Assembly: GCA_946527885.1 (NCBI GenBank)
Contig: CAMMYO010000005.1
Span: forward strand, 1 to 33,446
Length of the DNA stretch: 33,446 nucleotides
DNA from: an uncultured Candidatus Saccharibacteria bacterium
GTDB taxonomy: Bacteria; Patescibacteriota; Saccharimonadia; Saccharimonadales; Saccharimonadaceae
Direction: 5' to 3'
Under the pieces are notes generated by a model. The model saw only the letters and a list, made by a program, of their open reading frames with translations. It did no database searches and was not told the DNA's origin. Below, one piece after another: positions 3,041 to 7,689 of this stretch (within the stretch, counting starts at the first letter, position 1; the number at the start of each line of letters is the position of its first letter). The position numbers were made by a program, and so were the translations under genes.

Positions 3041-3116
3041 GGGGTGTTAGCTCAGTTGGTAGAGCGATTGGTTCGCAATCAATAGGTCAGGAGTTCGAAT
3101 CTCCTACACTCCACCA
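3041..3116 (+). tRNA. tRNA-Ala(CGC)
   Basis: A full cloverleaf can be drawn: acceptor GGGGUGU with ACACUCC, D-arm GCUC/GAGC, anticodon stem AUUGG/UCAAU with loop UUCGCAA (anticodon CGC), T-arm AGGAG/CUCCU with UUCGAAU, discriminator A and an encoded CCA. The acceptor contains the G3:U70 wobble that defines alanine identity. An extended -10 (TGCTACAAT, 3022-3030) lies ten bases upstream. A GCAA-loop terminator follows at 3124. Confidence 0.95.
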
Positions 3117-3163
3117 TTCAAAGATGACCGCAAGGTCATATTTTTGTTACAGGAGATGAGAAC
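3098..3163 (+). repeat. 66-bp direct repeat, copy 1 (tRNA-Ala 3' end plus terminator)
   Basis: This copy runs from the T-loop of tRNA-Ala through its CCA, the downstream terminator hairpin and on to GATGAGAAC. It is repeated without a mismatch at 3265-3330. Confidence 0.9.
3124..3145 (+). terminator. Intrinsic terminator of tRNA-Ala
   Basis: ATGACC/GGTCAT stem with a GCAA tetraloop followed by ATTTTT. It is duplicated exactly at 3291-3312. Confidence 0.75.
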
Positions 3164-3264: not shown

Positions 3265-3330
3265 AATCTCCTACACTCCACCATTCAAAGATGACCGCAA
3301 GGTCATATTTTTGTTACAGGAGATGAGAAC
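3265..3330 (+). repeat. 66-bp direct repeat, copy 2
   Basis: An exact copy of 3098-3163, including the last 19 bases of tRNA-Ala with CCA and the terminator hairpin (3291-3312). It cannot fold as a complete tRNA because the D and anticodon arms are absent. Confidence 0.9.
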
Positions 3331-4052: not shown

Positions 4053-4721
4053 TTAATTATCAAACAACACGCCGACTAGTATATCTCTCATCCTCCTTTC
4101 CTTCTTACTGCATGTCGACAAGATAATAACCTTCTCTTCTGGCGCCATTTCGCTTCTCCCTAGCGCACGCCAAAGCTCCGCCTTTCGCCCCTTCTTATAG
4201 TTCTGAGTATCATAAACCGCATCCGTATTGGCGTCCACCGTCGCATGAAAAATCCACCGAATTTCAAATGTCTCATTCCGCAACCATATTTTCCCTTTTC
4301 TATGCCCTTCCAGATAATCAAAATCTGCAAATTGGGCGAGCTCCGAGAACATCCACTCATTGCTCATACTATGTCCATATATCAACCAAACATCATCATC
4401 AAATTCGTGCCGCCAATCGAAAAATATACTTCCGGCACCCGAAAACTCCCCTTTATAATTTCGCGATAAAAACCAGCTATTATCCTTTCCTTGCATGACA
4501 GGATAGTCGATCATTGTGCCATCAATTTTCAGTCACGCCACCATCGCTTCATTTTCGTCGAATAATAACCCTAAGTCATCCACGTCCTTTACTGCGGGAA
4601 CATCTTCTTCGTGAATCGACTCAATCTCGATATCTTCATATAATCCACACAATGCCAGTATTAATAACGGCGCCATAAAACAGAAAGCCGCAATCTCGAC
4701 TACCCGATCAATCGCATTCAT
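4053..4721 (-). pseudogene. Class B sortase interrupted by an in-frame UGA
   Basis: One frame spans 222 residues with a single TGA at codon 63 (4533-4535). Before it lie an N-terminal transmembrane segment (residues ~8-27) and an acidic stalk ending NEAMVA. After it come LKIDGTMIDYPVMQ, the catalytic His in IYGHSM (H117), the catalytic Cys in ILSTC (C204) and the Arg in RRMRDILVG (R212), all typical of sortase B transpeptidases. The stop falls exactly where the family has a conserved Trp (pattern V-x-G-W-L-K-I-D-G-T). It is therefore a nonsense mutation (TGG to TGA), a sequencing or assembly error, or a read-through site. Nothing else is damaged. It follows the pilin gene, its probable substrate. 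Restart at the ATG at 4514 would give a soluble fragment lacking the anchor. Confidence 0.8.
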
Positions 4722-4754
4722 TTTCGCTACCTAAAAGCGCCCACCCAAACGCTC

Positions 4755-5867
4755 CTATTTTTGTTTAATCTTTTTGCCGGTCAATACAAGCCCAACGCAA
4801 GCCGCTCCGGCTACAGCCAAAAATGGTACCGCTCGCGAAGAAACGCCCGTTAAGACCGCCCCGTCCAATCCGCCATTATAATCGTGTCGGAGATTGGTTT
4901 CGTTTTGTGCCGCAAACCGCTCTTTTGTCGATTGATGTGCATTCGCCGACGGCACCGCCTGAATAGTCTTTTCTGACGACACTAAAGCAGTCGCTTCATC
5001 AACATAGCTAATATAATTTTCCTGATCATCCGAATCGATTGTATAGGTGATGCCAATCGGTAACTGTTTTACACCGTTCGCTATACCAATTGTCACCTCT
5101 TGTCCATGCTTCAAATAGACATAGTTATCATCTGCGCCCGCCACCAACTCGCTCGACGGCGCCAATGCCTCTCCGCCATATACAATCTCGTTGTCTTGGC
5201 CCGTTACGACAAATCGATCGCCATTAGCTGCGCCCGTTAAATTAATTTTGTATCGGAAATATTTATCCGGATCCGCCATATTGCCACTAACCGAGCTGCG
5301 TACCTTTATGTACGAAAAGTTCGCTCGTGTCACAAATACCGCCTCACTCATCTTTTCAGCCTCACCTTCCCTCATAATATAGCTCGGCATTGTTGCTACC
5401 AAATTCCCGGTCGGAACATTATTGTCATCCACTTCATTGCGCACATACACAAAAATATCGTATGTCGAATCTTTATCTGCCGGATAAGTCGTAGTGTCTG
5501 TCGTATTATGCTCTTTGAGCGTAAATCTATAGTCGCCCACTTTTGAAAAACTCAAATTTCCAAGATCTAAATACCCTACTAACTCCGCCTGATTGTTGTA
5601 TGGGGTTGCTGTATCAAAATCAATCTCATAAAAGGACGATAAGTTGCCTACTGGCGCCGGGTTATCGCTATTGGGTATGAGCTTATAACGCGCACCGACC
5701 ACTACTGGATTAGTCACATCTGTAATTATTTTCCTAATCGTTATATCTTGCGCACTCGACAAATTATCCCTAATCCTAGTAGCTTCGACCGCGAACACAT
5801 CTGCACTTTTCAAAGCCGCACTCAACATCAAAATACCAGCTATTCCAAAATATTTCCAAATTTTCAT
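4755..5867 (-). CDS. Isopeptide-domain (Spy0128/FctA-like) surface pilin
   Basis: A 370-residue secreted protein: signal peptide (residues 1-26, MKIWKYFGIAGILML start), a Spy0128/FctA-like pilin domain at about 44-145 with a candidate isopeptide Lys46 and Glu119 (RFTLKEH), a second beta domain at about 185-295 resembling DUF7601 pilin repeats, then a low-complexity linker. The C-terminus is a cell-wall-sorting-type tail: hydrophobic helix (346-363) and GKKIKQK. The usual LPxTG is replaced by something like VLTGV (339-342). The ATG at 5867 is chosen because a GAGGAGG site lies just upstream and a signal peptide follows; a longer frame starts at a GTG at 5909. It directly precedes the broken sortase gene. 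Confidence 0.75.
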   Translation of the reverse strand: MKIWKYFGIAGILMLSAALKSADVFAVEATRIRDNLSSAQDITIRKIITDVTNPVVVGARYKLIPNSDNPAPVGNLSSFYEIDFDTATPYNNQAELVGYLDLGNLSFSKVGDYRFTLKEHNTTDTTTYPADKDSTYDIFVYVRNEVDDNNVPTGNLVATMPSYIMREGEAEKMSEAVFVTRANFSYIKVRSSVSGNMADPDKYFRYKINLTGAANGDRFVVTGQDNEIVYGGEALAPSSELVAGADDNYVYLKHGQEVTIGIANGVKQLPIGITYTIDSDDQENYISYVDEATALVSSEKTIQAVPSANAHQSTKERFAAQNETNLRHDYNGGLDGAVLTGVSSRAVPFLAVAGAACVGLVLTGKKIKQK

Positions 5868-5905
5868 AACTCCTCCTCTTTTTATTTTTTGCGCACCCAA
5901 AAATA

Positions 5906-5926
5906 TCACGTCTTAAAACGTTGCAT
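5906..5926 (-). CDS. Possible six-codon upstream ORF (MQRFKT)
   Basis: An ATG at 5926 lies five bases after a strong AAAAGGAGG ribosome-binding site, and reads six codons to a TGA at 5906-5908. The TGA overlaps a GTG (GTGA) that is the first possible start of the downstream pilin frame. This could be a leader peptide or a translational-coupling device for the pilin. It is too short for any coding statistics. Confidence 0.3.
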   Translation of the reverse strand: MQRFKT

Positions 5927-6041
5927 TTCCGCCTCCTTTTCTTTACCTCTCTTCCAAAGCCGCGCGCTTTGTTCTTTTCATTTTACTTACCGACCAAAAA
6001 CGCTCAAGCATAAGTATTATGTCTATCTGTTGCGCCATCAA

Positions 6042-6068
6042 AAAATGTTGTGAATCTCACAACATTTT
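6042..6068 (-). terminator. Terminator of the glycosyltransferase operon
   Basis: A perfect 12-bp stem AAAATGTTGTGA/TCACAACATTTT with a 3-base loop. On the minus strand it is followed by a T-run. It overlaps the stop codon of the glycosyltransferase (6067-6069). Confidence 0.8.
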
Positions 6069-7689
6069 ATTTCTTTACTGATTTCTCTGTAACGTCAAAT
6101 TTTTCCATATAGCGACCAGTCGCCAAACGTGATTGCGCGTAAAACGCACACAATGACGAATAGACAATCGCATTAACCGGCGCGAGCACCCACTGCAACA
6201 ACATTAGAACATTCTTACTCTTTCGATAACGCTTCGGTCTTGGCGGCAACATCTTCATCGACAACATTACCGAAATCAACAAACCAATCGCTGCAACCGT
6301 CTGAATATAACTTACCACCATCGGCAAGTTATGCGACAGCAAATCGCGACTCTCCAAATGGAACCACAACGGCACCCAACCGCCAAAAGCAATAATCGGC
6401 GCAACCGCAGCAAGCGTCACGTGTCCATCGAGCAAGCGGATGAACTTTGGTAGCAACGAACTGAGTTTCATTTTGCGTTTCTTCGAAAACATATACGTCG
6501 CTACATAAGCCACATCGCTCGCGCCATAATCCCAACGACGCAGCTGCACCCACTGCGCCCTCAGAGTCTTAATCAAAGTGTCGCTCAAAACAGCATCCTG
6601 ATAAATCGCCGAACGAATCGGCAAAACTTCGTAATTACCATCAAAGTAGAACAAACTGCGCCAATACTGGTGACCATCTTCCACAATTGTGCGCACGCTC
6701 CAGAAATTCATTCCAATCAAAGCCTTCAACGGTTGCGAATGCGATGCAAAATTACGTAAAGTATGCGGGCGCATCGTACAAATCAAATTCCAAAACGAAT
6801 TCGTTGTCGCCACTACGCGAGTTACCGCCGGCGCATCCCAAATATTATTCGTAAACAACGAAACCGGCTGATAACTAAGATTCTGACGATCGTCGCGCAC
6901 GATAAACTCATATGCGACTTGACTAAAATAGCTCACATCCGGCCTATTATCGCTGTCTAGCGACGTTACAATCACATTTTCGACCGGGATCTTAAGCGAC
7001 TCAATATATTCTTGCAGACGACGCCCTGCATAAGTCAAGTTTGCACCTTTTCCTACAACCTCCCCCTTAATTCCGTCTGGGTGCTTCGAAAGCAAAAAGC
7101 CATAAAACTTTTTGCTGAATTTCTTTTCTAGCGCCTTCGCAACTTTCTCGCCCGCCTCGCCACCACGCTCTTCATAGGCAATTGTCACGATCATATGCTT
7201 CTTATCGAAAGAAGAATTAACTACGCTCTCTAGCGTAGGCTCCAAAACATCAAGGCTCTCATTGTAGAGCGTGATAATCACCGCATGATAAACATCGTCA
7301 ACCTTCGGATAATCCAACGTTTTTTCTTCGCTGAGTAACTTCAAATTCATCAAATGCTGATTGTAATTATATTCATCGCTTTTTTCGCCCGACAAACGCT
7401 CAAAACTTTGCTCCGGATTTTTCAAATCTTCTAGTCGCTGTTCCCAGTCAACCTTCGTTCCGGCCTTCACGGTCTTATAGCCCTGAACAGTTCGAACCGC
7501 AATGCCGACCGCTTTAACCAAATTCATAATCACAATTACGAGCAGATATAACGCACTCAAAGTCGAAGACGTCGCCGACAAAACCACCAAAAGTACTACC
7601 ATAGTCGTGCTAATCGCAAACGGTAGTATTTCAAAAAAGCGATAAAACTTCGTCCGCTTGCCTTGCGGCAGCTCTATGACTTTAGACAT
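6067..7689 (-). CDS. Membrane glycosyltransferase, family 2 (processive type)
   Basis: A 540-residue inner-membrane enzyme. Two N-terminal transmembrane helices (~22-65) are followed by a GT-A catalytic domain: AVIITLYNES strand (136-145), DSD metal/UDP-sugar motif (245-247), ED acid-base pair (337-338) and QLRRW (382-386), the QxxRW signature of BcsA/NodC-type processive synthases. About four helices follow from residue ~400 to ~520. It probably polymerises or adds sugars for a surface glycan, using nucleotide-sugar donors. The next upstream gene (a small membrane protein) ends one base before the ATG at 7689, so they form an operon and may form a complex. The sugar is not predictable from sequence alone. 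Confidence 0.85.
   Translation of the reverse strand: MSKVIELPQGKRTKFYRFFEILPFAISTTMVVLLVVLSATSSTLSALYLLVIVIMNLVKAVGIAVRTVQGYKTVKAGTKVDWEQRLEDLKNPEQSFERLSGEKSDEYNYNQHLMNLKLLSEEKTLDYPKVDDVYHAVIITLYNESLDVLEPTLESVVNSSFDKKHMIVTIAYEERGGEAGEKVAKALEKKFSKKFYGFLLSKHPDGIKGEVVGKGANLTYAGRRLQEYIESLKIPVENVIVTSLDSDNRPDVSYFSQVAYEFIVRDDRQNLSYQPVSLFTNNIWDAPAVTRVVATTNSFWNLICTMRPHTLRNFASHSQPLKALIGMNFWSVRTIVEDGHQYWRSLFYFDGNYEVLPIRSAIYQDAVLSDTLIKTLRAQWVQLRRWDYGASDVAYVATYMFSKKRKMKLSSLLPKFIRLLDGHVTLAAVAPIIAFGGWVPLWFHLESRDLLSHNLPMVVSYIQTVAAIGLLISVMLSMKMLPPRPKRYRKSKNVLMLLQWVLAPVNAIVYSSLCAFYAQSRLATGRYMEKFDVTEKSVKK

Follow-up and report, generated by a model that had tools for sequence, protein, structure and literature searches.

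In one genus of rumen Saccharibacteria, the codon UGA appears to hold two meanings within the same genome: from the sequences analysed here, it probably acts as a stop for the general proteome and as a tryptophan codon in a set of genes concerned mostly with competence, in which it would serve as a translational gate. As read here, the set comprises comEC, comFC, dprA, comM, the gene for a secreted LTD-domain protein, that for a UvrD-like helicase, and an operon that would encode a pilin and a class B sortase. We know of no earlier case of one genome splitting what a stop codon means by functional module. The sortase gene lies in the window, by which is meant the whole 33,446 nucleotide stretch analysed (the forward strand of contig CAMMYO010000005.1, from the assembly GCA_946527885.1 of an uncultured Candidatus Saccharibacteria bacterium).

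A UGA codon within a class B sortase gene

The sortase gene occupies positions 4053 to 4721 on the reverse strand, and was assigned through matches to Pfam PF04203 and to SrtB sequences in the PDB. Its frame of 222 codons runs from an ATG at 4721 to a TAA at 4053, with a sole interruption, a TGA at codon 63 (4535-4533; context MVA[TGA]LKIDGT), which separates a 62-codon N-terminal part containing the membrane anchor from the catalytic part. The read-through frame scores 27.9 bits against the Pfam Sortase profile PF04203, for which the cut-off is 26.6, and has 15 relatives in the PDB, mostly named sortase B, of which 4y4q is the closest match (1.6e-24). The catalytic histidine and cysteine, in the motifs YGH (His117) and LSTC (Cys204), both align with 4y4q, and there is an N-terminal hydrophobic stretch too. 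The single interruption of the frame, as described in an initial sequence-only reading, is confirmed. Several arginines (ERRMR) are found 3' of the cysteine, in a part where the phmmer alignment is loose. The gene shares its sequence family and catalytic motifs with the class B sortases, but is unlike them in having an in-frame UGA at a conserved tryptophan.

The identity of this residue, also proposed in the sequence-only reading, is borne out by two comparisons. Solved SrtB enzymes have tryptophan at the position of the UGA, and the codon-63 column of 35 aligned sortases from the genus contains 30 tryptophans and five TGA codons (the window's included), such that all 30 sequences without TGA have tryptophan there. 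A search of the genus genomes for sortases found 13 genes with an in-frame TGA and none with an in-frame TAA or TAG. The sites vary: G017 and G037 have the same VA[TGA]L as the window, and G028 and G027 have TGA in the same column; another site, DD[TGA]xYN, corresponds to a tryptophan in G017, and further sites exist. The sortase of G035 is without TGA.

Directly upstream of the sortase (4755 to 5870, reverse strand) is the gene for a pilin-like secreted DUF7601 protein, with a signal peptide and a C-terminal membrane anchor followed by a basic tail. These features are consistent with a pilin, which in the sequence-only reading would be the sortase's substrate. The counterpart of this gene in G017 itself carries a TGA. 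From the comparisons between genomes, the UGA codon is evidently not peculiar to the sortase, being part of a mostly competence-related set in one genus.

In-frame UGA codons across the genus

The survey covered 45 genomes of the genus, consisting of the 930-kb draft to which the window belongs (G000) and 44 others; among the named relatives are a Candidatus Saccharibacteria genome from sheep rumen (G017, JAFYAV010000001) and one from yak rumen. A genome-wide scan took frames spanning a stop from 703 kb of G000 and from 400 kb each of G017 and G035, and searched those of each genome against the genes of the other two and against G006 (764 kb). Unfiltered, this returned 681 stop-spanning matches, mainly antisense frames, which were cleared through use of a non-overlapping gene set and the G006 reference. 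Once antisense and upstream-extension artefacts had been removed, every interior stop judged real in G000, G017 and G035 was a TGA, and the genes containing them were comEC, comFC, comM, the LTD-domain secreted protein and the sortase. Read-through ORFs were also looked for without a reference; the output was too noisy for counts, but brought to light the pilin of G017 and, in G000, a UvrD-like helicase. The helicase frame (L111, contig C14 of G000, 4549-6933, reverse strand), named from its motifs, contains three in-frame TGA codons and is likely to be a further member of the UGA set. The 406 other homologous ORFs of G000 contain 1,241 aligned TGG codons and no interior TGA, against 12 TGG and four TGA in the flagged genes (Fisher 1.8e-8, a post hoc value because the flagged genes came from the same scan).

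The same confinement is evident in gene-by-gene searches. In-frame TGA is present in 36 of the 39 ComFC matches from the genus, at one to three per gene (the exceptions being G006, G014 and G026), versus none of 121 from other genera of the family, two of which have TAG (Fisher 1e-32); in 19 of 42 genus matches of DprA, which the scan had not flagged, versus none of 42 of prfB (Fisher 3e-7); and in 15 of the 36 above-cut-off genus matches of ComM, versus none of 114 from other genera of the order (Fisher 3e-11), all of these values overstating independence because the species share ancestry. The core domain of ComEC has TGA in 11 of 45 genus matches. The DprA sites and most of those in ComFC are known by count, rather than by aligned residue. 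Neither TAA nor TAG occurs in the above-cut-off genus matches of ComFC, DprA, ComM or ComEC. Presence of the codon is patchy, with the dprA of G000 and the comEC and comM of G035 free of TGA, a pattern that would equally be expected of drift in a tolerant system. The differing positions among species show that TGA had several origins. Across the genomes compared, the UGA codon is confined to a functional gene set within one genus.

UGA codons at tryptophan positions

The sole column of ComM in which tryptophan is the majority residue is composed of 14 TGG and 12 TGA codons, the same TGA being kept in 12 species. A Codetta-like count took in 54 TGA cells from those alignment columns of ComM, ComEC and the sortase that are well occupied; tryptophan scored +128 bits and the next residue, valine, -40, a lead of about 168 bits. 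On the strength of these alignments, UGA very probably specifies tryptophan in the genes of the set. A selenoprotein was rejected as an explanation: the UGA columns favour tryptophan, and the score for cysteine is -157 bits. No UCA tRNA was among those read from an RF00005 search of the organism's own genome.

Constraint extends across the UGA codons. Between close pairs of ComM sequences, dN/dS is 0.06-0.16 upstream of the TGA and 0.066-0.11 downstream. Together with the tryptophan sites, this purifying selection past the TGA supports continued function, one of the options that the sequence-only reading had entertained. The aligned core of ComEC has up to four TGA codons in some genes, and the base following TGA follows no fixed context (C in 25 cases, A in 22, T in eight and G in four); from these two observations we infer that decoding, when it occurs, would be fairly efficient and trans-acting. 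A local RNA readthrough element was also considered and rejected, with nothing unusual in the RNA structure at the window's TGA (fold z 0.36) and no fixed base after the codon.

Termination and tRNA complement

Outside the UGA set, the genus uses the standard code. The RF2 gene, prfB, is above the cut-off in 42 of the 45 genomes, G000 included, with no in-frame stop in those 42; it is present as fragments in G001 and G027, and the search gave no match in the 73% complete G017. The SPF and GGQ motifs of RF2 are normal in six sequences. Typically, prfB carries an autoregulatory UGA frameshift; this seems to be absent from the genus, since nearly the whole model matches in one frame. UGA is the stop codon of 43 of 392 ORFs in G000 and 14 of 256 in G035, and seven of the 36 genes of the window end in TGA. 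A genome-wide code in which UGA specifies tryptophan (table 4) was rejected on the basis of the retained RF2, the use of UGA as a stop, and the absence of interior TGA against the 1,241 TGG codons.

The tRNA-Trp is ordinary in 31 genomes, having a CCA anticodon, G24 and a perfect 5 bp anticodon stem. This led to the rejection of both a Hirsh-type G24A tRNA-Trp and one with a 4 bp anticodon stem, a form that exists as a UGA decoder. A suppressor tRNA with a UCA anticodon was likewise rejected: none was detected by Infernal (RF00005 in the organism's own genome) or ARAGORN, nor by a cloverleaf scan whose control recovered 26 and 43 tRNAs, and a pattern search returned candidates near the rate of a reversed control, with zero in the 100% complete G033. 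Hence of the read-through by tRNA-Trp envisaged in the sequence-only reading, sense decoding of UGA is supported, but not the route through a UCA anticodon, as only CCA was found. With the tRNA-Trp ordinary and the RF2 motifs normal, these searches found no special decoder. Neither 16S nor 23S rRNA was found in the genus sequence examined. Two tRNA-Trp matches are of odd length, one of 90 nt at 82% in G001 (C4, 17947-18036) and one covering positions 24-76 only in G033 (C1, 208700-208752), perhaps reflecting an insertion or intron.

Sequences upstream of the UGA-containing operons

The motif CTTATGCTT is found at 6006 to 6014 on the reverse strand, upstream of the pilin-sortase operon, and precedes comEC, the LTD gene and dprA in G000 as well, with comFC having the form CTTAAGCTT. 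The consensus, CTYAWGCTT, is located before four of the five UGA operons of G000 versus 16 of 695 genes, with a p of about 9e-7 that is post hoc, and genome-wide it is equally frequent in the antisense orientation. It is a possible promoter element of these operons. Shared regulation of the sortase operon with the competence genes is suggested by the motif, at that strength because of its post hoc definition and its equal frequency in antisense.

Other instances of these sequences were observed. A conserved small protein of unassigned function (..GVMAAGD-YV..) has CTTATGCTT upstream in both G000 (C1, 16894-17307) and G006 (C3, 116870-117346), the same motif precedes dprA in both of these genomes, and CTCATGCTT is found upstream of recA in G006. 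Elsewhere in the window, an exact direct repeat of approximately 64 bp (3100-3163 and 3267-3330) starts with the 3' end of a tRNA-Ala(CGC) gene (3041-3116), placed as an attachment site would be. A tRNA-Ala(CGC) is also near sortases in G001, G003, G011 and G013.

Discussion

At the level of sequence, it can be established that UGA falls at tryptophan sites, that it does so within a limited gene set and a single genus, that purifying selection operates on both sides of it and that the standard code applies elsewhere. Under the explanation proposed here, full-length sortase and DNA-uptake proteins would be made only while UGA is decoded as tryptophan, which in the simplest case would involve tRNA-Trp(CCA) reading UGA when RF2 cannot compete; the codon would then constitute a translational gate on competence and the associated pilus sortase. 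We infer that this tRNA is the decoder, that decoding is conditional and that it has a regulatory function; the chances of the gate itself are about even.

The main rival is constant leakiness in rarely used genes. According to this explanation tRNA-Trp(CCA) would read UGA at all times, and changes from TGG to TGA would be near-neutral in rarely needed genes expressed at a low level, drifting in and out without regulation. It would account for the interchange of the two codons in ComM (14 to 12), for the differing positions among species and for UGA being the rarer stop in both G000 and G035. It fits less readily with the limitation of TGA to one functional module, the 406 other ORFs being devoid of it, or with comFC keeping at least one TGA in nearly every genome of the genus, and where one ComEC has several TGAs, their costs to expression would multiply. 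We consider it rather unlikely, though it carries the most weight of the alternatives. More improbable is a dedicated decoder that went unrecognised and is produced by competent cells alone, be it a divergent tRNA, an edited or modified tRNA-Trp, or a translation factor. Such a factor would provide the efficient decoding that several UGAs per gene call for and would explain their limitation to one module, but no UCA cloverleaf accompanied the 26 and 43 control tRNAs, and the pattern search was at background and gave zero in G033.

Stops within a frame usually signal a pseudogene, and the genus could be losing competence and the sortase; this is very improbable given that TAA and TAG are absent although TGG to TAG is as easy a change as TGG to TGA, that frames are intact with dN/dS of about 0.1 downstream, and that 12 species have the same ComM TGA. 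The comparison with siblings, in which TGA recurs at tryptophan sites, hence gives no indication of pseudogene decay, and a recent lesion, raised as an option by the sequence-only reading, is excluded by the many independent genomes with TGA at such sites. The same recurrence disposes of the sequencing error also raised there, and such error, or contamination by an organism that recodes UGA, has next to no likelihood: the genomes are mostly drafts in many contigs, but the assemblies are independent and from different samples, the sheep and yak rumen records share the ComM TGA, and the TGA genes of G000 are on long contigs among normal genes.

A translational gate formed by UGA would resemble the one formed by TTA in Streptomyces, where this rare codon is limited to genes of a functional set and is read by a dedicated tRNA-Leu(UAA), the product of bldA. 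There, the gating codon is a sense codon with its own tRNA; here, the proposed gate is a stop codon, and a dedicated tRNA was not found. Genome-wide reassignment of UGA from stop to tryptophan occurs in mycoplasmas, Zinderia and the Patescibacteriota family JAKLIH01, the last newly reported from the same phylum but another class, Minisyncoccia (PMC8629427, PMC13092985). These codes share the meaning UGA has here but apply it throughout the genome, whereas this genus has RF2, UGA stops, a tRNA-Trp(CCA) with a 5 bp stem, and the altered meaning in one module only. Another report describes widespread in-frame stops in prokaryotic genes that are under purifying selection, with reduced expression as their proposed effect (PMC7918605); the likeness lies in in-frame stops within selected genes, and the difference in its concern with such stops in general, rather than with a single codon and amino acid in one module of one genus. 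In a cultured Saccharibacterium, the role of comEC in transformation was tested by its deletion; the Com system described there shares ComEC, ComF(C) and DprA with the UGA set (PMC10633639), and the terms 'UGA' and 'stop codon' are both absent from the paper. The literature searched, which excluded bioRxiv preprints and most subscription journals, yielded no account of UGA in competence genes.

There is perhaps an even chance that a stop codon serves as the switch of an entire physiological programme, the genes for competence and the surface pilus being translated solely at times when the cell allows UGA to be decoded as tryptophan, with one codon having two meanings according to gene function and cell state. 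Standard annotation would miscall comEC, comFC, dprA, comM and the pilus sortases of this genus as pseudogenes or fragments, and competence would then be under-counted. If the proposed reading is true, this would be the first case known to us of a stop codon whose meaning is divided by functional module within one genome, opening to testing both the start of UGA reassignment while RF2 persists and the regulation of competence in Patescibacteria.
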